Shown piece by piece: positions 16,098-63,973 of a stretch of 64,000 bases of DNA. Source of the DNA: an uncultured Alphaproteobacteria bacterium (GTDB lineage Bacteria > Pseudomonadota > Alphaproteobacteria > RF32 > CAG-239); the NCBI GenBank assembly GCA_944391685.1, contig CALXUM010000002.1, positions 90,645-154,644 of the forward strand. The letters are read 5' to 3'. A model generated the notes under the pieces. That model did not search any database. It was not told where the DNA came from and was given only the letters and a program-made list of their open reading frames with translations. The first letter of the stretch is position 1. Every line of letters begins with the position of its first letter. The position numbers were made by a program, and so were the translations under genes.

Positions 16098-16223
16098 TTA
16101 AAACAAGCTAAAAAATTAGCCCGCCTGAGGTTGGTAGTGAACCTACTTATCTCGTAGGTTCAAATCTGGCCGCGCCATATAAAAATAAAAAAGGCCAACC
16201 TAGTGGTTAGCCTTTTTTCTTTT

Positions 16224-16298
16224 TGGTTGCGGGGGCAGGATTTACTAAAGTTGCCTCTACACCTCTGAGCCAAGGCTCACCGGCGTTCTCACGCCCGC
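16224..16298 (-). pseudogene. Decayed tRNA-fMet-like sequence, copy 1
   Basis: Reverse strand. The 3' end AAATCCTGCCCCCGCAACCA differs from the intact tRNA-fMet at 63897-63973 by one base, the 5' end GCGGG matches, and the D-arm region (GAGAACGCCGGTGAGC versus GAGCAGCCCGGTAGCTC) is still recognisable. The anticodon loop reads CTCAGAG instead of CTCATAA and the T arm has lost TTC, so it cannot be a working tRNA. Confidence 0.5.
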
Positions 16299-16397
16299 CT
16301 GAGGTTTGTAGTGAACCTACTTATCTCGTAGGTTCAAATCTGGCCGCGCCATATAAAAATAAAAAAGGCCAACCTAGTGGTTAGCCTTTTTTCTTTT

Positions 16398-16472
16398 TGG
16401 TTGCGGGGGCAGGATTTACTAAAGTTGCCTCTACACCTCTGAGCCAAGGCTCACCGGCGTTCTCACGCCCGC
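16398..16472 (-). pseudogene. Decayed tRNA-fMet-like sequence, copy 2
   Basis: The second copy of the same degenerate tRNA-like segment, 174 bp from the first. The two copies are identical over the parts I compared, so the array duplicated after the tRNA-like sequence had decayed. Confidence 0.5.
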
Positions 16473-16571
16473 CTGAGGTTTGTAGTGAACCTACTTATCT
16501 CGTAGGTTCAAATCTGGCCGCGCCATACAAAAATAAAAAAGGCCGTCATTAAAAGACGGCTTTTATATTTT

Positions 16572-16628
16572 TGGTTGCGGGGGGAGGATTTGAACCTCCG
16601 ACCTTCAGGTTATGAGCCTGACGAGCTA
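16572..16628 (-). other. attL: 57-bp 3' fragment of tRNA-fMet
   Basis: Identical to 63897-63953. It begins with the reverse complement of CCA and runs through the T arm and anticodon arm to the D arm, then diverges into phage sequence at 16629. This is the displaced host 3' end; the complete gene was rebuilt at the right end. Confidence 0.95.
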
Positions 16629-16680
16629 AAAACAAAACACTAAGAAAACAGCCGGTTTCCGGCAATGTTATAAAACCCGT

Positions 16681-20199: not shown

Positions 20200-20581
20200 G
20201 GGAAAAGGCCTCCTTTTTTAATTCTTTAGCCAGGCGATACGCTCGGCAAGCCTCGTCATAGCTTTCGATATCACGCGTCCGGTATGCCCGCTCATGGCCG
20301 TACATCAAACCGGCCATGCGGTACAAAACCTCGGCCTTTGTCATTTTTTTCTGGCGCCACAGCAGATCCAGAACGCCGTCAATATAATTGTAGCCGCGGC
20401 GGAGCCGGAAATCAGGGATAACCTTATACGGCGGCTCATCTTTTGCGGCGAATTCGCCATAATTGCCGCAACGCGGACAGCGCGCGTACAAAGCGTCTTT
20501 GAAGGCAAAGCGCGGCCCGTAGATATCCGCTCCCGTGACCGTTTCCGGCTCGACATCTGTCTGGCAGTTAACGCAGAACAT
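20180..20581 (-). CDS. Zinc-finger phage protein (DUF3268-like)
   Basis: 133 residues from ATG 20581 (MFCVNCQTDVEP), with AGAGG upstream. Two Cys pairs, CVNC at residues 3-6 and CPRCGNYG near residue 38, would bind one zinc; the C-terminal half (QKKMTKAEVLYRMAGLMYG) is helical. This organisation resembles phage zinc-finger proteins of the DUF3268 type, whose role is unknown. Confidence 0.6.
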   Translation of the reverse strand: MFCVNCQTDVEPETVTGADIYGPRFAFKDALYARCPRCGNYGEFAAKDEPPYKVIPDFRLRRGYNYIDGVLDLLWRQKKMTKAEVLYRMAGLMYGHERAYRTRDIESYDEACRAYRLAKELKKEAFSHVQTVA

Positions 20582-20726
20582 CGGCAGCCTCTTGTTTGAG
20601 TTTCTCGCCCTCCGCCTTAAGCTCGGCAATCATCGCCTCAAGCGTATCCGGATTGTGGTTCGCCAAGGCCGCGTATTTCGCAACCTGGACCGATTTGTCA
20701 ACAAAAGCCTCGATTTTTTCCAGCAT
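20568..20726 (-). CDS. 52-residue helical protein
   Basis: MLEKIEAFVDKSVQVAKYAA followed by a charged helix ending in EAADVLR. AGGAGG lies five bases before the ATG, and the 3' end overlaps the zinc-finger gene by 14 nt. Probably a small alpha-helical phage protein; no family recognised. Confidence 0.6.
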   Translation of the reverse strand: MLEKIEAFVDKSVQVAKYAALANHNPDTLEAMIAELKAEGEKLKQEAADVLR

Positions 20727-20735
20727 GGCAGCCTC

Positions 20736-20942
20736 CTATTCGTTGTGTGATTTCAAATCCTTTTCAAGGGCGACAATTTCGCTCAAAGGATAGCGCGGTG
20801 ATTTTTTCTTGACCGGGTCGGCAAAGAAAAACCGCGGACCACGGCCGACCTGCCGCCAGTAGGAAAGCGTTTTGACGCTGACCTTCAGCCTTTCGGCCGC
20901 CTCAGTCGGCGTCAAATTAACCTCGTTTGTCAAATCATCCAT
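20736..20942 (-). CDS. Helix-turn-helix DNA-binding protein (AlpA/excisionase-like)
   Basis: 68 residues from ATG 20942, preceded by AGGAGGTTTACA. VNLTPTEAAERLKVSVKTLSYWRQVGRGP is a MerR/excisionase-type winged HTH reading head, and RYPLSEIVALEKDL is the C-terminal helix normally seen in AlpA/HTH_17 proteins. Overlaps the end of the Rad50-like gene by 8 nt. It could be an excisionase or an early regulator; its distance from attL (about 4 kb) does not decide this. Confidence 0.7.
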   Translation of the reverse strand: MDDLTNEVNLTPTEAAERLKVSVKTLSYWRQVGRGPRFFFADPVKKKSPRYPLSEIVALEKDLKSHNE

Positions 20943-22584
20943 TGTAAACCTCCTCGCAATTTCCGGCCTCAACCCAGTATTTGCGGCCGATGCCGAGTTT
21001 TTTGAGATCCGGCGCCGCCGACGGTTTGGCCGCCATCATGCCGACAAAAGAGCAATAGCTTTGCCCGGCCAGCAATTTAAGCAATCCGGCGCGGCCTTTG
21101 TTGTCCAGAATATCCGCGGCGTCAACGACCAGCGCATGCGAGCCGTCATATTCGGCAATGGCCGCCTGCAGCGTAACCTTGGCGCGAAACTTCTCGCTTT
21201 CTGAGCAAAGGACAAACGGCCGGTCGTTGTAACTGACCGACATGTCGCCGTCAACCTTGACGCAAGCCCACCCGGCAACATAGCAGAGATATTCCAGGCG
21301 ACCGTTGAAATCGGAAAGCCCTTTTTCAAGGGACCGGCGGCGGATACCCTCAGGCTCAAGAACATTGATGATTGCCTGATTTTCCAAAATATTGCGATGC
21401 ACGCGCAAAGCCTCATTGTAGCGATTGAACGACTGCAGGCGCGTCTCGGCTTTGCGGACGGCGTTGCGCGCCTCGTCAACCTCGGCCGGTTGAATGGTTT
21501 TGCCCTGTTTGGCCTCAAGCTCTTCTTTGGCCTTTTTAATTGCCTGCAGGGCACTGTCGGCCAAAATGAAATTATGCTTTGCAGCGTTCAGCTCACGCTC
21601 GGCCTTGCTGACGGCGTTGTCGGCGTCGAGGATCTGCTGTTCGAGTTTTTCGCGCTCCTCGGCAGATAGCGACTGTTTGACCGCCTCAAGTTTGCCGAAT
21701 TGGTAAACGACCGGCTTGCCACAATGCGGGCAGACAAGATCGTAGTTCGGCAGTTTGGGCAGTTTTTCACGCGCCGCGCGCGCCTCTTTCAAGGCCTTTT
21801 GCGCCTCGGTGACTTTTCCGGCCGCATCGTCGCATTTTTTTTCCGTCTCGGCCAGCCCGTCGGCTTTTTCCTGCAGCCGCGCAAGTTCATCGGCACTGAT
21901 GGCCTGGTTGGCGATTTTGTCCTCCAGGTCAGCCCGCGCCAAAGACACGTCAGCTTCAAGAGCCTCGGTCGAGGTTGTCTCAAGGTCGTTTTCCCAGCCT
22001 TGCGGAAACCATGACGCGGCTTTTTTCTCGCCGTAGGTCTCGCCGGCGATAAGCGCCCATTGCGATTTAAGACTGCGGCCTTTTTCTTTGGCACGGTCAA
22101 GAGAGGCGTCCCATCCTTCGGCCTCGATATTATGCCAGACGGCCTCCTGCACTTTTTCCGAAAGACCGGCGTCAGCCAAGGCCTCGCAAAGCTCCTGTTT
22201 GACCGGATCAGCCTTGAGAATATCACGCAACAGTTCGACTTTGTCTTTGTCTGCCATGGCCGGGAAAGCCACCGCACCCACTGCAATGTCGGATGCTTCA
22301 GGGGCGGAAACCCCCTCGGAGCGGCGCTCGCACTTTGGCCAAAATACCTCTACCTTTGCGCCGTCTTCCTCCAACACGACGGAGGCCGCGCCGGCGCCGG
22401 TCTTGACCAGCATGCCGGCTTTGGTCTTTTGCAAGCCGAGCGGAACGCCGCCGCGCAAAGCCGCGGCAATCGGCAACAAAGTGCTCGTCTTTCCCTGGCC
22501 GTTAAGCCCCAAAATCAAAGCAATCTTTGAGGCTTCAACCTCGGCCGCCGCGCAACCCATAAAGTTTTTAATTGTGGCTTTCAT
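20935..22584 (-). CDS. Rad50/SbcC-like ATPase with zinc hook
   Basis: 549 residues. Walker A is LGLNGQGKTSTLL at residues 25-37. A long coiled coil spans about 190-400 and is broken by CPHCGKP near residue 300, the CxxC zinc hook that joins two SMC-type arms. HALVVDAADIL near residue 490 is the Walker B region, with Ala-Asp in place of the usual Asp-Glu. SMC-type ATPases of this size in phages work with nucleases and annealing proteins on DNA ends. It lies 3 bp from recT, and a PD-(D/E)XK exonuclease follows upstream, suggesting one recombination unit. Confidence 0.8.
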   Translation of the reverse strand: MKATIKNFMGCAAAEVEASKIALILGLNGQGKTSTLLPIAAALRGGVPLGLQKTKAGMLVKTGAGAASVVLEEDGAKVEVFWPKCERRSEGVSAPEASDIAVGAVAFPAMADKDKVELLRDILKADPVKQELCEALADAGLSEKVQEAVWHNIEAEGWDASLDRAKEKGRSLKSQWALIAGETYGEKKAASWFPQGWENDLETTSTEALEADVSLARADLEDKIANQAISADELARLQEKADGLAETEKKCDDAAGKVTEAQKALKEARAAREKLPKLPNYDLVCPHCGKPVVYQFGKLEAVKQSLSAEEREKLEQQILDADNAVSKAERELNAAKHNFILADSALQAIKKAKEELEAKQGKTIQPAEVDEARNAVRKAETRLQSFNRYNEALRVHRNILENQAIINVLEPEGIRRRSLEKGLSDFNGRLEYLCYVAGWACVKVDGDMSVSYNDRPFVLCSESEKFRAKVTLQAAIAEYDGSHALVVDAADILDNKGRAGLLKLLAGQSYCSFVGMMAAKPSAAPDLKKLGIGRKYWVEAGNCEEVYNG

Positions 22585-22587
22585 GGA

Positions 22588-23439
22588 TTATTCTCCCCAG
22601 TTGTCCCATTCCTCGCTGTCATCAGCCTGCGGCATGGCAACCGGCGCCGGTTTTTCTTCGGCAACGTCTTCGAAGTCGGCGTCAATAACCGGAGCTTCTT
22701 CCGCCGGGGATTCTTCCGCGGCGGGTTCAGCCGGCTTTTTGGCCTCGGCTTTTTTGGCGCGTTTGGGCTTTGCCGGTGCTTCTTCTGCCGGTTTGACCAT
22801 CTCGCCGGACTGGACAACCTCGGCCGGACGTGTCACCGGCTCAGCCGACACGGACGAATTGTCATCCAGATCGCCGCCGATGGACAGCTCGGGATAAAAC
22901 ACGCTGGCAAAAAAGGTGGCGGCGCGGTAGCGGATCATCATCTCCGGCATGGTCTTCCATTTGCTGCCGTCTTTGCTGTACCAGCCCTCGGCAACTGCCA
23001 TTTTCATATCAACCCACGGCCCGATGCGCTCCTCGCCGTTTTTTTTGTCGGTGGCAATGGCGCGGCAGGCAAGGTTTTCAATGCTTGTTTTGCCGCCAAA
23101 ACCCTGAACCTGCACCGTTCCGTTTGACGCCATTTCATAATGCAGATTATCAACGCGGCTGGTGGTCAGCGCGGCGATGATGTATTTTGACGACCAGGTC
23201 GGGCGGCCTTTAATCACATTCAGGTTTTGCATCACCACAATCGGCGACAACCGGTTGCGCGCGGCGATTTCCATCGCCACAATCACGTTCGGCAGGTTAT
23301 TATAATAAGCCTGCGGCACGATCTGCGACTGCGTCAACAGCTTGCCGATCCGCTGGGCGTTTTCAAAAGCGGCGGCGTCGGACAGAATATCGGTTGAAAC
23401 GGCGCTCGTCTCATTTTTAACAACGACGTCATTCACCAT
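22588..23439 (-). CDS. recT: RecT-family single-strand annealing protein
   Basis: 283 residues. Residues 20-190 carry the RecT pattern: AQRIGKLLTQSQIVPQAY, NVIVAMEIAARNRLSPIVV, MQNLNVIKGRPTWSSKYI and MPEMMIRYRAATFFASVFYP. The last 90 residues are low-complexity Ala/Pro/Glu/Lys ending in an acidic DSEEWDNWGE tail. RecT anneals complementary single strands during phage recombination and replication, usually with a partner exonuclease, here probably the PD-(D/E)XK gene at 23899. Part of the leftward early operon. Confidence 0.88.
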   Translation of the reverse strand: MVNDVVVKNETSAVSTDILSDAAAFENAQRIGKLLTQSQIVPQAYYNNLPNVIVAMEIAARNRLSPIVVMQNLNVIKGRPTWSSKYIIAALTTSRVDNLHYEMASNGTVQVQGFGGKTSIENLACRAIATDKKNGEERIGPWVDMKMAVAEGWYSKDGSKWKTMPEMMIRYRAATFFASVFYPELSIGGDLDDNSSVSAEPVTRPAEVVQSGEMVKPAEEAPAKPKRAKKAEAKKPAEPAAEESPAEEAPVIDADFEDVAEEKPAPVAMPQADDSEEWDNWGE

Positions 23440-37799: not shown

Positions 37800-38118
37800 T
37801 TTCGCGCCGGAGGACTTTGTCATTCCGGATTTGCCGGAAAGCGACGAAGAACCGGACCGGACAGATTATGAGGGCAGGCTGAAAAAGATTGAGCTGGACA
37901 GAGTTGAAGGTCGCCTGCTGGATAAAAACGCGCAAAAAAAAAACAGTTTTGACCTTGGTCGTCTGCTCCGCGACAAACTGGCGGGGTTGCCGTCAAAACT
38001 CGCCGCGCGGGTGTCGGCCGAAACGGATGTCAAGAAAAACGAGAGGTTAATACGGAATGAATGCAACAGATGCGGTCGAGAGATACTCAGACGAATGGCT
38101 GATTTTGGAAGGCGTTAG
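37750..38118 (+). CDS. TerS-like C-terminal-region protein, copy 2
   Basis: 122 residues from GTG 37750, overlapping copy 1 by 50 nt and TerL by 62 nt. YEGRLKKIELDRVEGRLLD and LGRLLRDKLAGLPSKLAARV align well with the C-terminal region of copy 1 (YTARLRKIEFEKEMGAIV, ILREKLKAVPNRLAPK), but there is no HTH. It looks like a tandem partial duplication: a TerS accessory subunit without DNA reading head. Good GGAGG upstream supports expression. Confidence 0.65.
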   Translation: MSSGKSRRPLPKSSIPDFAPEDFVIPDLPESDEEPDRTDYEGRLKKIELDRVEGRLLDKNAQKKNSFDLGRLLRDKLAGLPSKLAARVSAETDVKKNERLIRNECNRCGREILRRMADFGRR

Positions 38119-39985
38119 ATGCTTTTGCGAAGGCTTTCTCAAAGGTTTGGAGCTGCCGCCGCGCCAGACGATTTCCGAGTGGGCGGACGCCAATCGCAAG
38201 CTGAGTTCCGAGAGTTCCGCTGAGCCCGGGGACTGGAATACCAGCCGCGCCGAATATCAGCGCGGTATTATGGACGCCATATCAGACATCAATGTGTCTG
38301 AGGTGACGATTGTCGCCTCGTCTCAGGTCGGCAAAACCGAAATCATCAACAACGCCATAGGCTACTACATCGACAAAGACCCTTGCCCGATCCTCCTGAT
38401 GCAGCCAACCGAGAACGTCGCCAAGAGCTGGTCAACCGACCGTCTGATGCCGATGCTCCGCGACACGCCGTGTCTGCAGGGCAAGGTCTCGGACAGCAAA
38501 GACAGCGGCAACACCGTCTTGCACAAATCGTTCCCCGGCGGGCACATCACCATGGTCGGCGCCAATTCGGCCGCCGAGCTGGCAAGCCGCCCGATCCGCG
38601 TCGTCATGATGGACGAAGTCGACCGTTACCCGTTGTCGGCCGGCAAAGAGGGTGACCCGGTCAAGCTGGCCATAAAAAGAACAACCACGTTTTGGAACCG
38701 GAAAATCGTCAAATGTTCCACACCGACCATTGCCGGCATGAGCAAAATAGACGCATCATTCCAGCAATCGGACATGCGCTTTTTTTTGGTGCCGTGCCCG
38801 CATTGCGGCAAATATCAACGAATTGAGTGGGCAAATGTTAAGTGGGAAAAAAGAGAAACGGCCGAGGAAAGCGCCAAAACGGCTGTATATGCCTGCCCGC
38901 ATTGCGGCGCCTGCTGGAATGATGTCGAGCGCTGGCACGCCGTCGGCCTCGGCCGATGGGAGGCAACCAGGCCGTTTAACGGACACGCGGGATTTTCGCT
39001 CTGGGAGGGATATTCGCCATGGGTGCCGCTCAAGGAAATAGTCAAATCTTTTCTTGATGCTAAAGACGATCCGGAGGCATTAAAAACATTCATCAACACC
39101 TCGCTCGGTCAGGTGTGGGAAGACAAAGGCGAGCGCGTCGACGAAACCAGACTGATCAACCGGCGCGAGGATTACACGACAGCGCCGCCGGAGGTTGTTG
39201 TCATCACGGCCGGCGTTGACGTCCAGGATGACCGTCTGGAGGTTGAGCGCCTCGGCTGGACGGTCAACAACCAGAGCTACGGCCTCGGCAAGGTTGTGTT
39301 GCTCGGCGATCCTGCGGCTGCACGCATCTGGGAAGAACTCGACGACCTTTTGCAAACGCCGGTCCCTCACGCCCTGACCGGCGAAATGGAAATCTCGGCC
39401 TGCTGCATCGACAGCGGCTATTTAACCCAGCAGGTCGGCAAGTTTTGTCAGGAACGCTGGAACCGGCGCATCTGGGCGATTAAAGGCATGCCAGGCGAAG
39501 GCCGCCCGATTCTCAAACGCGCTCCGGGAAAGATTAAAAAGCTCAATCTGGAGTTTTTTCTGGTCGGCACCGATACGGTCAAAGACGTGGTTTATTCGCG
39601 GCTTAAGATTGACGATCCGGCAGCCCCCGGATATTGCCATTTTAACATGAGTTACGACGAAAACCACTTTATTCAGCTGACAGCCGAGGAAGCAAAAACC
39701 TCTTATGTCAAAGGACGCAAGCTCCGTTATTACGCCCTGCGTCCGGGACGCAAACGCAACGAGGCGCTGGACATATTCGGCTATGCCCTGGCAGCGCTGG
39801 AAGGGCTCAAACTTTCAGGGCTGAACATGCGGCGGCGCTGGGAAAAGATGCTCGCGCGGCAGGAATACGCCGAAAAAGTCCGCGAAATGGTAGAACACAA
39901 TCCCGAAGTGGTTGTTGAAAATATCCCTAAGCCGGATATTTTAAGGCCGCGCCGCCGTAGGCGCCTGGTCGGCAGATTTGCCTGA
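38057..39985 (+). CDS. Terminase large subunit (lambda gpA-like)
   Basis: 642 residues, the usual gpA size. EVTIVASSQVGKTEIINNAI is the Walker A-like motif, VVMMDEVDRYP the Walker B, and VITAGVDVQDDRLEVE the start of the RNase H-like nuclease domain with its metal Asp. FLVPCPHCGKYQRIEW and CPHCGACWND are the two zinc knuckles typical of gpA. TerL powers DNA translocation into the prohead and cuts the concatemer. A hairpin follows directly after the stop. Confidence 0.95.
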   Translation: MNATDAVERYSDEWLILEGVRCFCEGFLKGLELPPRQTISEWADANRKLSSESSAEPGDWNTSRAEYQRGIMDAISDINVSEVTIVASSQVGKTEIINNAIGYYIDKDPCPILLMQPTENVAKSWSTDRLMPMLRDTPCLQGKVSDSKDSGNTVLHKSFPGGHITMVGANSAAELASRPIRVVMMDEVDRYPLSAGKEGDPVKLAIKRTTTFWNRKIVKCSTPTIAGMSKIDASFQQSDMRFFLVPCPHCGKYQRIEWANVKWEKRETAEESAKTAVYACPHCGACWNDVERWHAVGLGRWEATRPFNGHAGFSLWEGYSPWVPLKEIVKSFLDAKDDPEALKTFINTSLGQVWEDKGERVDETRLINRREDYTTAPPEVVVITAGVDVQDDRLEVERLGWTVNNQSYGLGKVVLLGDPAAARIWEELDDLLQTPVPHALTGEMEISACCIDSGYLTQQVGKFCQERWNRRIWAIKGMPGEGRPILKRAPGKIKKLNLEFFLVGTDTVKDVVYSRLKIDDPAAPGYCHFNMSYDENHFIQLTAEEAKTSYVKGRKLRYYALRPGRKRNEALDIFGYALAALEGLKLSGLNMRRRWEKMLARQEYAEKVREMVEHNPEVVVENIPKPDILRPRRRRRLVGRFA

Positions 39986-39988
39986 TGC

Positions 39989-40014
39989 CTTTTTACTTCC
40001 AAGGGAAGAAAAAG
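39989..40014. other. Hairpin 3' of orphan variable repeat B
   Basis: CTTTTTACTTCC ... GGAAGAAAAAG, 11-12 bp with one bulge, starting 4 bp after the TerL stop. It lies 17 bp beyond the end of the orphan VR on the reverse strand. An equivalent hairpin follows the other orphan VR at exactly the same spacing. DGRs are known to use a hairpin/cruciform just 3' of VR as part of target recognition. Confidence 0.55.
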
Positions 40015-40030
40015 TTATTTTGGCGGATAT

Positions 40031-40137
40031 GCCCGCGCGCGCCATAATTGCCATACGCAACCGAAAGCGAATTGTCCGCAGTACGACAGCGGGAACCGCA
40101 ATCCGAGGAATAGCTCCAAGCCGCCCCCGCCAGAAGC
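40031..40137 (-). repeat. Orphan DGR variable repeat B (drifted)
   Basis: 107 bp that align without gaps to the TR core (58208-58314) with 24 differences; 15 of these are at TR adenines. The constant segments GCTTCTGGC, GGTTCCCG, AATTCGCTTTCG and TGGCGCGCGCGGGC are retained. Translated on the reverse strand it gives LLAGAAWSYSSDCGSRCR and GARGHIRQ. No lectin-type body is encoded upstream of it on that strand; the open frame that covers it runs through the promoter of 40246-40779, so I do not call a gene. The 9 non-adenine changes suggest an old, decaying copy. Confidence 0.8.
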
Positions 40138-40185
40138 CTGCACAATTTGAAAAAGTCAAAAACAATGACTTTTTTATACTTTTTG

Positions 40186-40214
40186 TTGACTATTTTATAC
40201 TTTAATGCTACGAT
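40186..40214 (+). promoter_or_regulatory. Promoter for the 40246 gene
   Basis: TTGACT, a 17-nt spacer, TACGAT, followed by AAAGTATAATTTTGAC. The same AAAGTATAA word occurs before other phage units. An independent promoter here fits a moron gene. Confidence 0.5.
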
Positions 40215-40245
40215 AAAGTATAATTTTGACGGAAAGGATAGGGTT

Positions 40246-40779
40246 ATGACTGAAAAAGAATTTGAAGAAACCAAAAAACAGGTATTGTCGGCGGCGGCAT
40301 TTCTTGCCATCATCGGCGGGGCGGTTTTATACGGGTATGACATCATCAGCGCCGGCTGGACAATCCCGGTTATTTTGTTGCTCTACGCCATCCTTGGCGG
40401 TGGTTTTTACCATGTCATTGAACAAAAACGCGACACGGACGATGATTTCGACCTTCCGGGCTTTGGCGAACCGGTGTGGCAATCCGACAAAGGTATCCCG
40501 GTAAACTTTTCCTACACCGACGCCTCCGGAAAGAAGACCAAACGCCGCATCGTTTTGCACAAGATATTTAAAGACGGCAAAACCCGCTTTTATTTTCAAG
40601 GCTATTGCCAGCTGCGCAAAGCTGAGCGCACGTTCGTCAGCGACAAAATAAAAGATCTGCACGACGACAACGGCGAAATCATTGACCTGCCGCAATTTAT
40701 CAACGACCTAACCGGCTACGATGCCTTTGGAAGTGCCGAAGTCCGCACCGTTAAAGAAAATAGCAAGAAAGAAAAATAA
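40246..40779 (+). CDS. Membrane-anchored WYL-like domain protein (moron)
   Basis: 177 residues from ATG 40246. Two hydrophobic helices at residues 15-55 (AAAFLAIIGGAVLYGY and IPVILLLYAILGGGFYHVI) are followed by a cytosolic beta domain: VNFSYTDASGKKTKRRIVL, then FYFQGYCQLRKAERTFVSDK. That segment has the rhythm of WYL domains (F-x-Y-x-x-x-x-G, then G-x-C-x-x-R-x-x-R-x-F), which sense ligands in regulators and defence-linked proteins. It interrupts terL and the head genes, has its own promoter, and is bracketed by orphan VRs. Function is inferred only loosely. Confidence 0.5.
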   Translation: MTEKEFEETKKQVLSAAAFLAIIGGAVLYGYDIISAGWTIPVILLLYAILGGGFYHVIEQKRDTDDDFDLPGFGEPVWQSDKGIPVNFSYTDASGKKTKRRIVLHKIFKDGKTRFYFQGYCQLRKAERTFVSDKIKDLHDDNGEIIDLPQFINDLTGYDAFGSAEVRTVKENSKKEK

Positions 40780-40834
40780 AATTCCGCCGTTTTGTTTAAT
40801 TATTTTTTAACGATTATGTGCTTTACTGCTTCAT

Positions 40835-40969
40835 GAGCTCAAAACTCAGTATATAGCGGAAAGACCGCCCCGTAAGATTAGCGGATTTTTTTGTGCCGAT
40901 TTGTCAAAAGTCGGGAGTGCGAGGAAATATCAGAATAACTCCGCGCGACTATATACGCGTTTTGAGCTC
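40835..40969. repeat. 21/22-bp inverted repeat
   Basis: GAGCTCAAAACTCAGTATATAG at 40835-40856 and CTATATACGCGTTTTGAGCTC at 40949-40969 are imperfect reverse complements. The interval 40780-41019 otherwise holds no gene. It may be a structured transcript or the edge of an inserted cassette. Confidence 0.6.
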
Positions 40970-41019
40970 CCGACACCTCCACGGTTTGGAGGCAACCTCT
41001 CAAAAAAGGTATATAGACA

Positions 41020-41211
41020 ATGAAATCGCTTTTTTATTCTTTCGCCGCGGCGTTTCTCATGACGACCGCCGCTATTTTTACAATCCACAACTACAATCAG
41101 TATGCCGCGTCTTTTGACCGCGTTAAACAGGGGCTTGAGTTAAACCGCGCCTATGCCGAATATTTGCCGGTTCTGCAGGCGCAAATTAACGCCTCAACCG
41201 GATCTTATTAA
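41020..41211 (+). CDS. 63-residue membrane or secreted protein
   Basis: MKSLFYSFAAAFLMTTAAIF is a signal-anchor-like N-terminus, followed by a helical tail (FDRVKQGLELNRAYAEYLP). No lipobox. Ribosome site weak. Function unknown; lies within the terL-gpW insertion region. Confidence 0.45.
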   Translation: MKSLFYSFAAAFLMTTAAIFTIHNYNQYAASFDRVKQGLELNRAYAEYLPVLQAQINASTGSY

Positions 41212-41228
41212 AGGTGTCGAAATCGACA

Positions 41229-41253
41229 CCTTTTCACCTCCAAGGTGGAAAGG
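41229..41253. other. Hairpin 3' of orphan variable repeat C
   Basis: CCTTTTCACCT ... AGGTGGAAAGG around a short loop, located 17 bp beyond the 3' end of orphan VR C and 18 bp after the 41020-41211 stop. Sequence and spacing correspond to the hairpin after orphan VR B. Confidence 0.55.
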
Positions 41254-41269
41254 TCCCTTTGGCGGATAT

Positions 41270-41376
41270 GCCCGCGCGCGCCAACAAAGACATACGCCGC
41301 CGAAAGCGGATCAGACGCAGCGCGATAACGGGAACCGCAGTGCGAGGAATCGTCCCAGTCGCCCCCTGCCAGAAGC
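41270..41376 (-). repeat. Orphan DGR variable repeat C
   Basis: 107 bp aligning without gaps to the TR core with 21 differences, 18 of them at TR adenines, the mark of mutagenic retrohoming. Translated it reads VLLAGGDWDDSSHCGSRYR and GARGHIRQ. On its 5' side TCCTGCATG is shared with the fibre gene VR but not with the TR, so this copy derives from a VR, not from the TR. Upstream on the same strand there is only a short unrelated frame (start near 41486), so the lectin-like body is missing. I regard it as an orphan VR. Confidence 0.88.
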
Positions 41377-41405
41377 ACCATGCAGGAAAGCGCTTCTAAA
41401 ACAGA

Positions 41406-41436
41406 AAGCCCCGGATATTTGCAACTATCCGAGGCT
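41406..41436. other. Hairpin between orphan VR C and the tRNA cluster
   Basis: AAGCCCCGGATA ... TATCCGAGGCTT, about 11 bp of pairing. No strong T run; it may be a processing or weak termination site. Confidence 0.4.
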
Positions 41437-41500
41437 TCCCTGCTTTCCTGGCCGTTGTACACCGGTTCGGTCGGCGCTTGCTTCATGTTTGGTTATAGAC

Positions 41501-41581
41501 CGGACCGGTGGGGCTCGAACCCACATTCTGAATTTCTTCATTGCTTGCAAGCTACGCTCTGACCAATTAAGCTACAGTCCG
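41501..41581 (-). tRNA. tRNA-like element with abnormal anticodon arm
   Basis: 81 nt on the reverse strand. Acceptor CGGACTG/CGGTCCG, D arm GCTT-AATTGGTCA-GAGC and T arm GTGGG-TTCGAGC-CCCAC all fit a tRNA. The part between (GTAGCTTGCAAGCAATG, then TGAA-GAAA-TTCA) does not form a normal five-pair anticodon stem, and CCA is not encoded. It may be a degenerate phage tRNA with a long variable arm. The interval 41582-41680 shows nothing else. Confidence 0.5.
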
Positions 41582-41680
41582 ATAATTGGAGTTTGATATC
41601 GCACAAACTCTGTGTAAAAGCGGAAAGTTTAACCTGCAAAGCATTTTACTTTCAATTTTATCGACGTCTTGCGCCGGGTT

Positions 41681-41757
41681 TGGTCGGATCGGCTGGATTT
41701 GAACCAACGGCATCTTGCTCCCAAAGCAAGCGTTCTGCCAGACTGGACTACAATCCG
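41681..41757 (-). tRNA. Phage tRNA-Pro (anticodon TGG)
   Basis: 77 nt including encoded CCA. Acceptor CGGATTG/CGATCCG, D arm GTCC ... GAAC, anticodon arm CTTGC-TTTGGGA-GCAAG with TGG at 34-36, T arm GTTGG-TTCAAAT-CCAGC. All arms pair. It complements the host tRNA-Pro(CGG) at 8711-8787 by reading other proline codons. Confidence 0.9.
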
Positions 41758-41906
41758 ATGGAAAGCAAGAGCCTCGCGACCCTTGCTCGTTTCACTGACG
41801 CGGAAAATTCAAAAAAAGCACGGAAGGTTTCGGTCACAATGAACCATGATTTTTACACCTACAACGCCACTCCTTTCGGAGTCCCATTCCGGCAGATCCG
41901 GAAGGC

Positions 41907-41981
41907 TGGTTGCGCGGGATGGACTTGCACCACCGTCCTCTTGGGTATGAGCCAAGCGAGCTACTCCTGCTCCACCGCGCT
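41907..41981 (-). tRNA. Phage tRNA with CAT anticodon, initiator-like
   Basis: 75 nt including CCA. Pairs 2-7 (GCGCGG/CCGCGC) are perfect while position 1 (A) opposes A72, the unpaired end that marks initiator tRNA. The anticodon arm is CTTGG-CTCATAC-CCAAG, and the T arm GGTGG-TGCAAGT-CCATC lacks the usual TTC. D arm GAGC-AGGAGTA-GCTC has a short loop. Overall it resembles the host tRNA-fMet at 63897-63973. It could be an initiator-like or elongator tRNA-Met. The interval 41758-41906 shows nothing recognisable. Confidence 0.75.
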
Positions 41982-42045
41982 ATAGTATAATTTGACGTCA
42001 TTTTAACAGCCGACGGGGTTAAAAGTCAAGCATTTAAAATTTTTT

Positions 42046-42075
42046 TTGAACATTTAAGTATGAAATGACTAAAAT
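42046..42075 (+). promoter_or_regulatory. Promoter of the head operon
   Basis: TTGAAC, an 18-nt spacer, TAAAAT, 30 bp before the gpW gene. The upstream TTGAACATTTA word is repeated before the next promoter at 43795. Confidence 0.6.
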
Positions 42076-42104
42076 AGTTTAAGAAAGTTAAACGCGAGGC
42101 AAAT

Positions 42105-42335
42105 ATGACAAATAACACCCTGACCGAAGAAGAAAAGGCCGAGCTTCAGGCGCGGCGCAAAAAGCTCATCAACGCCTATACCAGCGGCACGGCGTCCATC
42201 AGCCACAACGGTAAAACCGTCACTTTTCGCAGCATGACCGACATCAAAGCCGCCATTGATGCCATTGACGCCGAGCTCGGCACCAAACGCAAAACCCGCG
42301 TCATCAAAACCTACTCAAACCGGGGGCTTGCATGA
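42105..42335 (+). CDS. gpW-like head-tail joining protein
   Basis: 76 residues, as usual for lambda gpW. LTEEEKAELQARRKKLINAYTSG and VTFRSMTDIKAAIDAIDAEL fit the two-helix plus beta-hairpin gpW fold. gpW closes the portal after DNA packaging and lets the tail join. ATG is preceded by GAGG; the end overlaps the portal start by 4 nt (ATGA). Confidence 0.85.
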   Translation: MTNNTLTEEEKAELQARRKKLINAYTSGTASISHNGKTVTFRSMTDIKAAIDAIDAELGTKRKTRVIKTYSNRGLA

Positions 42336-56634: not shown

Positions 56635-58122
56635 ATGAAATACACACCGCCTTTAAATTCCGAAGATCCGGACGCTGGATTTATCAATGCGGACCCTGCC
56701 AACGGTCAGGAAGGATCTATCATCCCGGCCGGAGCTCTTGAAAATCCGCAACGTGAAATCGTCGCGGCCATCACCAAACTGGGCATGACGCCGGCAGAGG
56801 CCAACAATCAGCTCGGCACCGCTTTGTTTGAGGCCGCCACCATTTCCGACTTTTGCGCAGAGGCCTCGTCATCCGCGGCCAACGTTTATGTGCTGTCGTC
56901 AACCGGACAGGTGCAATACAGCGCCCTGAGCGACGGACAGCGCATCCGCTTTAAGGTTGTTCATCCAAACAGCGGCTCGGCGACCATCAACGCCTACGGC
57001 ACCGGTGCCAAACCGGCAAAAAAATACGCCGGCACCGCAGATTTAAGCTCCGGCGACCTTTTGACCGGCGCCATAGTGGAATTTTCCTGGAACGCCGCCG
57101 GGAATTACTGGGAGTTCATCTCAACCTCCTACGAAACCTCGGGCGTGGCCAATTATGACACCTTCTTCCAGGTCAACCCGTTTTTGGTCGTCAACGGCAA
57201 GCGCAACATCACCATCAAGGCGGGGAGTATCATCCGCCTGGAAGTCGACGGCGTGTCACGCTGGCGCCAGCAAACCTCGGATGAAGTTATCAACTGCCAG
57301 TCGCTGATGGATTCCGGCACGTCATTCTCGGCCGGCAAGGACTATCACATCTTTTTGGTCCCGGAAGGCGACAATGGCACAAAATTTGTTGTTTCGCTCA
57401 ACTCCACCTATCCGGGCGGATATTCGGCAGATAACTCGCGCAAAATCGGCGGATTTCACACCGAATGCAGCAATGTCGGCACAATTTCAGGTCATCCGCT
57501 GTCCGGCTATGCCGCTGGCGATATCTTGCCCGCCTCGGTGTGGTGCTTAAACCACCGGCCGATATCCGAACCGGAGGGCATGGTCTATGACGACGTCAAT
57601 GATGTCTGGGTTGACATTTACAACCAGTCCGGTACCGGCGCCAACACAAAATCAGTTTACGGCGGCACCCGAGCCAACACCAGAATGCACTTTGATTTCG
57701 TAGATGACCAGCGCTCGGTCAAAAAAACGTTGCTGCATGACGAAGAATTTTATTCGGCGTCCAAAGGCAGCAATCAAAAAACCGTTGTCAGCGGATCCAA
57801 TCAGCCAAGCCCAGACACAACCGGAGGCCACAGCGACACAGCCGGCCGCAGAATGGTATCAAACATAGGTTGTGAGGAAATGTGCGGCCTGCAATGGCAA
57901 CATTTGGCCGAAACTCACGCCGCCGGCGGTGCGAACTGGAACAGCCAAAACGGCGACGAAGGTTCGTTCTACGGCTCCTGCATGGTGCTTCTGGCAGGGG
58001 GCACCTGGGACGATTCCTCGAGCTGCGGTTCCCGTTGTCGCAATGCGAGTAATTCGCTTTCGAATACGTATGTCGTTAATGGCGCGCGCGGGCGGAGCCT
58101 GCCAAAGAGGATGCCAAACTAG
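56635..58122 (+). CDS. Tail fibre / DGR target protein with C-type-lectin-like end
   Basis: 495 residues. The N-terminal 70 residues attach to the baseplate, the middle is beta-rich with many Gly, Ser and Thr, and from about residue 405 RRMVSNIGCEEMCGLQWQHL begins the lectin/FGE-like fold used by DGR targets. Residues 450-488 are encoded by the VR: VLLAGGTWDDSSSCGSRCR ... NGARGR. In the TR the variable codons are AAC/AAT, so Asn positions are diversified. It is expected to bind the bacterial receptor, with variants changing host range. Confidence 0.92.
   Translation: MKYTPPLNSEDPDAGFINADPANGQEGSIIPAGALENPQREIVAAITKLGMTPAEANNQLGTALFEAATISDFCAEASSSAANVYVLSSTGQVQYSALSDGQRIRFKVVHPNSGSATINAYGTGAKPAKKYAGTADLSSGDLLTGAIVEFSWNAAGNYWEFISTSYETSGVANYDTFFQVNPFLVVNGKRNITIKAGSIIRLEVDGVSRWRQQTSDEVINCQSLMDSGTSFSAGKDYHIFLVPEGDNGTKFVVSLNSTYPGGYSADNSRKIGGFHTECSNVGTISGHPLSGYAAGDILPASVWCLNHRPISEPEGMVYDDVNDVWVDIYNQSGTGANTKSVYGGTRANTRMHFDFVDDQRSVKKTLLHDEEFYSASKGSNQKTVVSGSNQPSPDTTGGHSDTAGRRMVSNIGCEEMCGLQWQHLAETHAAGGANWNSQNGDEGSFYGSCMVLLAGGTWDDSSSCGSRCRNASNSLSNTYVVNGARGRSLPKRMPN
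57984..58096 (+). repeat. DGR variable repeat A (in the fibre gene)
   Basis: 113 bp aligned without gaps to the TR at 58205-58317. There are nine substitutions and all fall where the TR has A (A to G six times, to C once, to T twice). The last 20 or so bases, GGCGCGCGCGGGCGGA, are identical and GC-rich, as expected of the initiation-of-homing part. Confidence 0.97.
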
Positions 58123-58128
58123 GGCAAA

Positions 58129-58148
58129 TTCTTTTTAATTAAAAAGAA
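58129..58148. other. Hairpin 3' of variable repeat A
   Basis: TTCTTTTT-AATT-AAAAAGAA, a perfect 8-bp stem, 32 bp after the VR and just after the fibre stop. It may be a target-site hairpin or a weak terminator separating the fibre gene from the TR. Confidence 0.5.
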
Positions 58149-58204
58149 AAGGCAAAAAATATGAAGGTTTTGGGTAAATATTTATCACGAGCAGTACATT
58201 ACCG

Positions 58205-58317
58205 GGTGCTTCTGGCAGGAGGCAACTGGGACAATTCCTCGAACTGCAGTTCCCGTTGTCGCAATGCGAATAATTCGCTTTCGAATACGAATGTCAATAA
58301 TGGCGCGCGCGGGCGGA
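58205..58317 (+). repeat. DGR template repeat
   Basis: 113 bp. It lies between target gene and reverse transcriptase in the same direction. Adenines are grouped in AAC/AAT codons when read in the VR frame (NWDNSSNCSSRCRNANNSLS), the usual TR pattern. An open frame runs through it from ATG 58161 to TAA 58340 (59 codons), possibly by chance because the VR frame is coding. The region 58123-58480 has no other gene. Confidence 0.96.
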
Positions 58318-58369
58318 TACGGTTTGATCCTCTTGGATAACTCCGGCTGAGATATTTATCCATGTCGCA

Positions 58370-58399
58370 CCGCGCGCCCCAAACAACGGGAACCGCAGT
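58370..58399 (-). repeat. Inverted VR/TR-like fragment after the TR
   Basis: CCGCGCGCC (58370-58378) and ACAACGGGAACCGCAGT (58383-58399) are reverse complements of two constant parts of the TR/VR, in the right order but with about 40 bp missing between. It could be an internally deleted VR, or a stretch that base-pairs with TR RNA in the spacer needed for cDNA priming. Confidence 0.6.
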
Positions 58400-58480
58400 C
58401 GGCAAAACACAAAAACGGAGGCAACGCCGGGCTAGTAGCCCAAAAAACGAAAACCCGGCATTTGCAAAATAAGGATTGAA

Positions 58481-59524
58481 ATGGTTAAAAGATACGGAAA
58501 TTTATGGACGAAGGTCATCACCAAAGAAAACATCCGCTTGTCCTACGAGCAGGCAAAGCTCGGCAAGGGCAAAAAGCGCAATGTGCGCCTTTTTAACCGC
58601 GATTTGGAAAACAATCTTGAAAAAGTGCGCCAAAGCCTGGTCAACAAGACCTTCACAACGGCGCATTACAGCACCAAAACCGTTTTTGAACCCAAACGCC
58701 GGACCATTTATATTTTGCCGTTTAACCCCGACCGTATTGTCCAGCACGCGGTAATGAACGTTTTAATCCCGATTTGGGATAACCTGTTTATTGCGGAATC
58801 CTACGCCTGCCGCGATAACAAAGGCATGCACAAGGGCAGCCTAAAAACGATGGAATACATCCGCGGCAACAGATATTGCCTGAAATGCGATATTTCAAAA
58901 TTTTATCCGTCCATCAACCATGATATTTTAAAAAGCATCGTCCGCCGCAAAATCAAAGACAAAGACGTCCTGTGGCTGATTGACGACATTATCGATAGCT
59001 ACCCCGGCGAAACCAACGCGCCGATCGGCAACTTCACCAGCCAATGGTTTGGCAATCTGTATTTGAATGAGCTTGACCAGTTTGTCCGGCACCAGCTCAA
59101 AATCAAATGCTACCTGCGCTATTGCGACGATTTTTGCCTTTTTCACAACGACAAAAAAGTTTTGAACGATGCCGCCGTCAAAATCAGGCAGTTTTTAACC
59201 GACAGGCTCCGGCTCCGCATGAGCAAATGCGACCTTTTTCCCGTCAGCCGCGGTGTCGATTTTCTGGGATACCGCCACTTTCCCGAATACATACTGTTGC
59301 GCAAATCAACAGCCAAAAGGGCGCGCAAGCGCATCAAAAAAGCCGTCTACAATCTGCACCGGCACAAAATAACTGCTGAGCAGTTTCGTTCGGTCATTGC
59401 CAGTTATGACGGCTGGATGAAATGGGCAAAAACATACAATCTGCGAATAAAACTTGATCTTGACCGATTAAGAGAGGCCTCAAAAAATGCAAGAACAGCA
59501 AATGACATCCTCGCCAGATTATGA
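58481..59524 (+). CDS. DGR reverse transcriptase
   Basis: 347 residues. Motif 3 CDISKFYPSI at 136-145, motif 4 IGNFTSQWFGNLYLNELD at 182-199, and the catalytic YCDD at 214-217. The S-Q in motif 4 (G-N-x-T-S-Q) separates DGR enzymes from retron and group II intron RTs, which have S-P. Motif 6/7 SKCDLFPVSRGVDFLGYRHF follows. No maturase or endonuclease domain. It would copy TR RNA with adenine-specific errors and write the cDNA into VR. No avd-type four-helix accessory gene lies beside it. AAGG precedes the ATG region. Confidence 0.96.
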   Translation: MVKRYGNLWTKVITKENIRLSYEQAKLGKGKKRNVRLFNRDLENNLEKVRQSLVNKTFTTAHYSTKTVFEPKRRTIYILPFNPDRIVQHAVMNVLIPIWDNLFIAESYACRDNKGMHKGSLKTMEYIRGNRYCLKCDISKFYPSINHDILKSIVRRKIKDKDVLWLIDDIIDSYPGETNAPIGNFTSQWFGNLYLNELDQFVRHQLKIKCYLRYCDDFCLFHNDKKVLNDAAVKIRQFLTDRLRLRMSKCDLFPVSRGVDFLGYRHFPEYILLRKSTAKRARKRIKKAVYNLHRHKITAEQFRSVIASYDGWMKWAKTYNLRIKLDLDRLREASKNARTANDILARL

Positions 59525-59837
59525 CAATTATCCGGCTTTTGCCGATGATCCGGAAATGCTCAGAAAATCAAATGAGCAAAGCGGCTTTGTCGGCTCGAAA
59601 ATCCCCGTTGACAAGCTCTTAAACAAAAAAATAGTCTTCGTGGATTTTAGCGTTGCACCAAGTCAATACAAGCGTTTCGGCGAATCCGTGACCAAGGTGC
59701 AAATCATTGTGGACGGCGAAAAGCATATATTTTTCACGCAGTCTAAAAACATAACCAAAACGCTCGAAGTCTTCAAAGACAAACTGCCGCGTGTCGGCAC
59801 GATTGTCAAAGATGACCGCGCGCTCAAAATTATCTGA
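59487..59837 (+). CDS. Small protein overlapping the RT
   Basis: 116 residues from ATG 59487, overlapping the RT end by 38 nt; a second ATG four codons later. KKIVFVDFSVAPSQYKRFGE, VQIIVDGEKHIFFTQSKN and LPRVGTIVKDDRALKI suggest a small beta-rich fold (possibly OB-like). It is not Avd-like: Avd is a basic helical bundle. Could be an RT partner by position, or simply a phage structural-region gene. Confidence 0.55.
   Translation: MQEQQMTSSPDYDNYPAFADDPEMLRKSNEQSGFVGSKIPVDKLLNKKIVFVDFSVAPSQYKRFGESVTKVQIIVDGEKHIFFTQSKNITKTLEVFKDKLPRVGTIVKDDRALKII

Positions 59838-63896: not shown

Positions 63897-63973
<77 letters not shown>

Follow-up and report, generated by a model that had tools for sequence, protein, structure and literature searches.

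A variable repeat (VR) of a DGR is expected at the coding end of a target gene. Why, then, does a repeat that bears the adenine-directed changes of such a VR lie on the reverse strand between two late genes of a prophage, with no target gene around it? This question is raised by a stretch of 64,000 nucleotides (hereafter "the window") from the genome of an uncultured alphaproteobacterium (G000). We refer to the repeat as VR-C. A reading made from the sequence alone had offered two explanations: a relic of a second target gene, or a noncoding cassette able to recombine with the VR of the fibre gene.

The prophage and its DGR

The window contains a prophage, whose late genes include terL, a gpW-like adaptor, a portal, an Mtd-like fibre and a DGR reverse transcriptase. 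A 57-nucleotide tRNA-Met sequence is exactly repeated at 16572-16628 and 63897-63953, with one copy lying within a whole tRNA gene, and these repeats are likely the attachment sites of the prophage. The left prophage border (16119-16640) also carries three 174-nucleotide direct repeats, two of which are 99% alike and one 68%.

The target of the DGR is the fibre gene (56635..58122, + strand; PF21916 4e-25, phrog_11262 3e-54). Its VR (VR-A; 57984..58092, +) differs from the template repeat (TR) at nine positions, all nine of them adenines, and is followed by a predicted hairpin of eight pairs (58129..58148, +; fold z -2.3). The 109-nucleotide TR core is at 58205..58313 (+), and the reverse transcriptase gene is at 58481..59524 (+; RVT_1 1.5e-17, phrog_1423 9e-117). 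This organization resembles that of the BPP-1 DGR, which, according to its description (PMC3240598), likewise has an Mtd-like fibre with a C-terminal VR, a TR just downstream, a reverse transcriptase, adenine-specific VR changes, a GC-rich 3' end and an inverted repeat after the VR. It differs from BPP-1 in three ways: the 112 nucleotides from VR to TR (58093-58204) are too few for an Avd gene, the stems are less GC-rich with loops that depart from the GRNA consensus (same source), and there are extra, gene-less VRs. The ORF after the reverse transcriptase gene (59487-59837) has no Pfam match and matches only phrog_19665, a family of unknown function.

As a side observation, the TR lies in frame inside a small ORF of 59 amino acids that starts with MKVLGKYLS (58161-58340, by eye), and a similar ORF start is found by eye upstream of the TR in the related loci L005, L006 and L276. 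Moreover, the TR-reverse transcriptase spacer (58205-58480) contains an 11-nucleotide complement to TR positions 45-55, a length reached by none of 100 shuffles, and the L005 spacer contains a 9-nucleotide TR complement in the corresponding position, a length matched by 8 of 100 shuffles. Pairing between TR and spacer was considered and set aside, because complementarity exceeded that of shuffles in only two of 34 loci (the window and L006), with that of L006 at a different place.

When the window's own genome was searched with the TR, four places only were found: the fibre VR, the TR, VR-C and a second orphan, VR-B. Both orphans are on the reverse strand, 17-18 kb from the fibre VR and TR. 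The same search of 152 genomes of the family matched two, G000 and G018; the latter is MAG RGIG4730, from roe deer rectum, and its prophage carries VR-C, VR-B and another unit, which we call D. A search with VR-C among 94 related genomes gave matches in four (G000, G018, G026 and G032), those in G026 and G032 being 24-27 nucleotides long and restricted to the inverted repeat neighbouring VR-C. Finally, a sequence-pattern search retrieved three viral records, with a fibre VR or TR in each, and among genome contigs only the G018 prophage. The orphan units are thus carried by two prophages only. We designate their fibre VRs A0 (G000) and A18 (G018).

VR-C carries the marks of a VR without its gene

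The VR-C core occupies 41271..41379 (- strand), and its neighbours are terL (38057-39985, +) and the gpW-like head-tail adaptor gene (42105-42335, +; phrog_2545). In a gap-free alignment with the 109-nucleotide TR core, VR-C shows 21 differences, 18 of which fall at the 25 TR adenines (hypergeometric P = 3.0e-12). The sequence-only reading was therefore correct in placing an adenine-mutated repeat between these two genes. The three other differences, at TR positions 54 (G to A), 71 (T to C) and 82 (T to G), are private to VR-C among the sequences compared.

What surrounds the core also points to a VR. On the 5' side is an 8-nucleotide flank, TCCTGCAT (41380..41387, -), that is common to the fibre gene and fibre VR and absent from the TR, which upholds the earlier claim that VR-C derives from a VR, not directly from the TR. 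The GC-rich 3' end, GGCGCGCGCGGG (41271..41282, -), is intact and is the same in the TR, the fibre VR and units B, C and D. It is followed by a 3' tail, CATATCCGCCAAA (41258..41270, -), shared with VR-B, where the sister prophage has the fibre-like CGGAGCCTGCCAAA, and then by a predicted hairpin of 11 pairs with one mismatch (41228..41254, -; fold z -1.9).

No target gene is attached to VR-C, as had been remarked. A single reverse-strand ORF of at least 60 amino acids covers it; this ORF has 92 amino acids and no lectin body, and only its residues 37-72 match phrog_11262, the tail family of the fibre. VR-C therefore lies outside the coding end of any target gene, although its differences are mainly at TR adenines. 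We also considered whether the orphans encode a functional lectin end, which is unlikely given that a cysteine is lost in C and D and that there is no body. The codon changes outside adenines are Cys to Tyr and Ser to Pro in C, and Cys to Ser in D, and the letters so altered do not vary among the sequences compared (three TRs and four fibre VRs). The lectin end that the orphans encode is, for this reason, probably not under selection.

VR-B, unit D and apparent exchange among units

The core of VR-B (40032..40140, -) adjoins terL, directly behind the gene. It differs from the TR at 27 positions, including 15 adenines (P = 1.5e-5), and the predicted hairpin on its 3' side, of 11 pairs with one bulge (39989..40014, -; fold z -2.4), is next to the terL stop. 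In G018, unit D is in tandem directly upstream of B. D and B of G018 are joined in a single open frame of 171 amino acids (L200 5577-6092), which counts against the units being inert copies.

VR-B of G000 appears to be composite. It combines the 5' junction of D with the 3' part of B; its 5' third is unlike both B and D of the sister, and the remainder is identical to B of G018. A comparison of B between the two prophages shows changes at 5 of 25 adenine sites and at 7 of the 84 remaining positions. One unit may therefore have been altered after the two prophages separated, which is evidence against a general freeze. The junction mosaic in B, together with the 3' tail of VR-C, which is B-like in one prophage and fibre-like in the other, suggests that the units recombine with each other. 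The exchange with the fibre VR that the cassette proposal envisaged, on the other hand, was not seen. The orphans have non-adenine marks at TR positions 54 (A), 71 (C) and 82 (G), and at 40 (T) and 90 (G), and these private marks occur in none of the four fibre VRs compared (A0, A18, L005 and L006). In A0 and A18, every difference from the TR is at an adenine (9/9 and 17/17, respectively).

Some letters of B hint at its age. At TR positions 58 and 67 it agrees with the TR of L006, and at position 52 with that of L005, while positions 7, 31 and 34 are of the window's own type. Judged by these letters, B probably records an older TR of this lineage.

A predicted landing module

GGCGCGCGCGGG is identical across the fibre VRs and orphans of both prophages, so that the orphans have the GC-rich 3' end that a VR shares with its TR. 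By analogy with BPP-1, this element may be IMH-like. Inverted repeats of 9-11 pairs follow it in B, C and D, with the stem starting about 17-19 nucleotides beyond the GC-rich end, and their loops do not fit GRNA. The outer CTTT/AAAG pairs of the three stems are alike, and the inner part is different. Among 3000 random 60-nucleotide windows of the prophage, 43, 27 and 13 reach 9, 10 and 11 pairs, respectively; the TR flank, counted in the same way, has 6.

Fold z-scores are -2.4 for B, -1.9 and -2.2 for C, -3.4 for D and -2.3 for the fibre. Taken alone, however, these scores are not decisive as proof of hairpins, because the TR 3' flank, used as a control, reaches similar values (-2.2 and -1.5), and those of the fibre hairpins in L005, L006 and L276 are poor (-0.2, -0.7 and +1.4). 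Since the z-scores are modest and the TR flank scores alike, the pair counts at constant spacing are better evidence. In BPP-1, whose target site makes use of both a GC-rich end and a hairpin, the hairpin after the VR is required for efficient retrohoming (PMC3240598). All landing parts look intact in the orphans, which counts against an inert copy, as they would be superfluous there.

The insertion site

Two terminator-like repeats border the site of VR-C. The left one is an inverted repeat behind a 63-amino-acid ORF (41210..41233, no strand assigned; identified by eye), which is also found in G104, G175, L085 and G224, and the right one is a hairpin behind a tRNA cluster (41402..41432, -; fold z -3.1), also found in G104. 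A simple terminator scan of 39800-42150 reported 7 sites versus 4.1 expected; the two bordering repeats are not among these sites and are terminator-like by eye. In G104, whose terL is 86% identical, the two repeats are about 16 nucleotides apart with nothing between them, whereas the same repeats enclose, in the window, the VR-C unit with its roughly 160 nucleotides. According to the empty-site alignment, the unit missing from G104 extends approximately over 41234..41394 (-). The VR-C unit therefore likely arrived as a module of roughly 160 nucleotides. The G104 contig ends before its fibre.

No VR is present in the terL-gpW interval of the five relatives read there (G104, G175, L085, L087 and G224). 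These include G224, which bears a DGR and yet has no orphan VR in this interval. Nor was a match to the fibre gene found here in the three relatives searched (G104, G175 and L085), so the full target gene for which related prophages were to be checked did not turn up. With the G104 site empty and no VR in the other relatives, the unit was most simply gained, without need of a decayed gene, and the earlier suggestion that VR-C is what remains of a second target gene is not supported.

The adenines of VR-C are unchanged between two prophages

The prophages of G000 and G018 are collinear and have diverged by 3.6-6.0% in the four blocks compared. In the fibre VR, 16 of 25 adenine sites have changed between them, compared with none of the 84 others. 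Their VR-C cores, by contrast, are identical letter for letter (0/25 adenine sites, 0/84 others), and the adenine-site contrast is significant (Fisher P = 8e-7). Between these two prophages, then, the diversification seen in the fibre VR is absent from VR-C, and the question posed earlier, whether the locus still gains adenine-site variants, drew a negative answer. It is this contrast, and not conservation as such, that matters, because 4992 of 34814 118-nucleotide windows (14%) are also without any difference between the prophages. For the same reason, we dropped the idea of purifying selection on VR-C, to which an intact core beside diverged flanks might have pointed.

All orphans are reversed relative to the fibre, and orientation can affect editing. 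With a reconstituted BPP-1 DGR, targets co-directional with replication were edited better, and editing of reversed targets was several-fold lower, as stated in PMC12875486. However, the GC3 skew of the host contig is -0.384 for + strand genes and +0.402 for - strand genes, by which the reverse strand looks like the leading strand. Write protection by orientation was therefore rejected for the prophage state, as a leading reverse strand would favour the orphans in host replication.

Survey of related DGR loci

Among the best 80 related DGR loci, which we examined, 68 yielded an adenine-biased repeat pair. The longer related DGR contigs, 29 in number and 1.13 Mb in total, were scanned with their own TRs. 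The fibre VR only was found in 28, and one (L083) has a second VR within a target ORF of 235 amino acids. No orphan VR was detected in the scanned stretches of these 29 contigs.

Proposed explanation and alternatives

On balance, we favour the view that VR-C is one of a few backward-lying copies of the fibre's predicted DGR landing module, and that it is likely inert, frozen and no longer rewritten. By landing module we mean the VR, its GC-rich 3' end and the predicted downstream hairpin; the copies lie beside terminator-like repeats. Each unit would have been copied as DNA from the 3' end of the fibre gene into a gene junction, where it would do no harm. Copying as DNA is preferred, and a direct insertion of TR cDNA was rejected, on two grounds: 5' flank of the fibre gene is present in VR-C and in the sister's B, and the units have a downstream hairpin, which is missing from the TR. 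B and D may be older than C, as they agree with TRs of related phages in part of their non-adenine letters. Once deposited, the units would have been subject to ordinary mutation and to recombination among themselves. The DGR may rarely hit an orphan copy, where no variant would be selected. Such a freeze needs no special protection, because selection keeps new fibre VRs and favours nothing in a gene-less copy. We regard an inert copy as the simplest account, the last step of which we infer.

The orphans could instead be silent donors that restore the fibre VR by homologous recombination, in the manner of antigenic-variation cassettes. We consider this unlikely, even though VR-C retains fibre-gene flank and has a frozen core, and the units are tandem in the sister and mosaic with one another. 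A synonymous TGC just upstream of the VR, common to the G000 fibre and VR-C where the fibres of G018, L005, L006 and L276 have TGT, is a one-letter hint of exchange. On the other hand, the adenine-only differences of A0 and A18 leave no sign that orphan marks entered a VR, and donor marks are absent from A0, A18, L005 and L006, these being four fibres only. Donors C and D would also import the lost cysteine, and, as the units are inverted with respect to the fibre, a simple crossover with VR-C would leave about 16.6 kb in the opposite orientation. A related and rather unlikely idea is a DGR with memory, in which past fibre-tip variants would be stored as inverted, partly tandem VR-hairpin modules at gene junctions behind terL. 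If it were true, the modules would stay unchanged and recombine, and the phage could regain an old receptor specificity after DGR overwriting.

It seems quite improbable that the reverse strand once held a second fibre gene at this place, of which decay has left the VR end alone. The little fibre-gene flank on VR-C and on the sister's VR-B, and hairpins after the units as at a gene end, would agree with such a relic, but the same interval lacks a VR in all five relatives read, with the G104 site empty. G018 likewise has no attached body, and the body would need to have been lost in every unit at almost the same position, immediately upstream of the VR. We also doubt strongly that the orphans are live secondary targets, which the DGR would still rewrite at a low rate and which would act as landing pads or decoys competing with the fibre VR. 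Their intact GC-rich end and hairpin, the five adenine sites at which the 5' third of B differs between prophages, and the apparent leading-strand position, which, going by PMC12875486, would favour them in host replication, speak for this view. Against it are the absence of change at the 25 adenine sites of VR-C, compared with 16 changed in the fibre, and the three changes of C away from TR adenines, which would not have survived a complete rewrite from the TR. Least credible to us, and highly improbable, is an antisense element. Both orphans sit in antisense orientation between + strand genes and share 81% identity with the TR, so late + strand terL-gpW transcripts would carry a TR/VR complement that could, in principle, pair with DGR RNA or fibre mRNA; terminator-like repeats flank VR-C on both sides, however, and such a unit occurs in 0 of the 29 related DGR contigs scanned.

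Relation to known systems

Silent gene-conversion cassettes such as pilS and vls serve antigenic variation. The orphans resemble them as partial copies of a variable gene end that are tandem in the sister and mutually mosaic, and differ from them in that transfer into the expressed gene is not seen. DGRs with one TR and more than one VR are also known, and, according to PMC3521204 and PMC6642488, most of the extra VRs are in paralogous target genes and are still diversifying. The extra VRs of the present prophage are, unlike those, in gene junctions and on the opposite strand; VR-C is unchanged between two prophages, and a relative has an empty site. The nearest precedent is a VR in Pelodictyon phaeoclathratiforme that has no coding region (PMC3521204). 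We found no account of frozen VR copies outside genes in the open-access literature searched, including passages of PMC8144416, PMC4372165 and PMC10743442.

A DGR writes over its target, and earlier variants would be expected to disappear. In this case, frozen variants that likely differ in age persist beside an apparently live DGR. The orphans thus provide a natural record of earlier states of the TR and VR and a built-in unselected control for DGR mutation, and with them it can be tested directly if a phage with a DGR is able to return to old receptor loops. Such units would escape any survey that demands a VR inside a gene.

Two other loci showed features of their own. In L083 (19293-20000), the second VR differs from its TR exclusively at adenines (18/18), and its 235-amino-acid ORF is about 10 kb from the DGR. 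The G175 prophage (reverse complement of L273+L274, about 20341-23331) has a fibre with a similar N-terminus, followed by a distant reverse transcriptase that is 32% identical over 194 residues and that perhaps belongs to another DGR.
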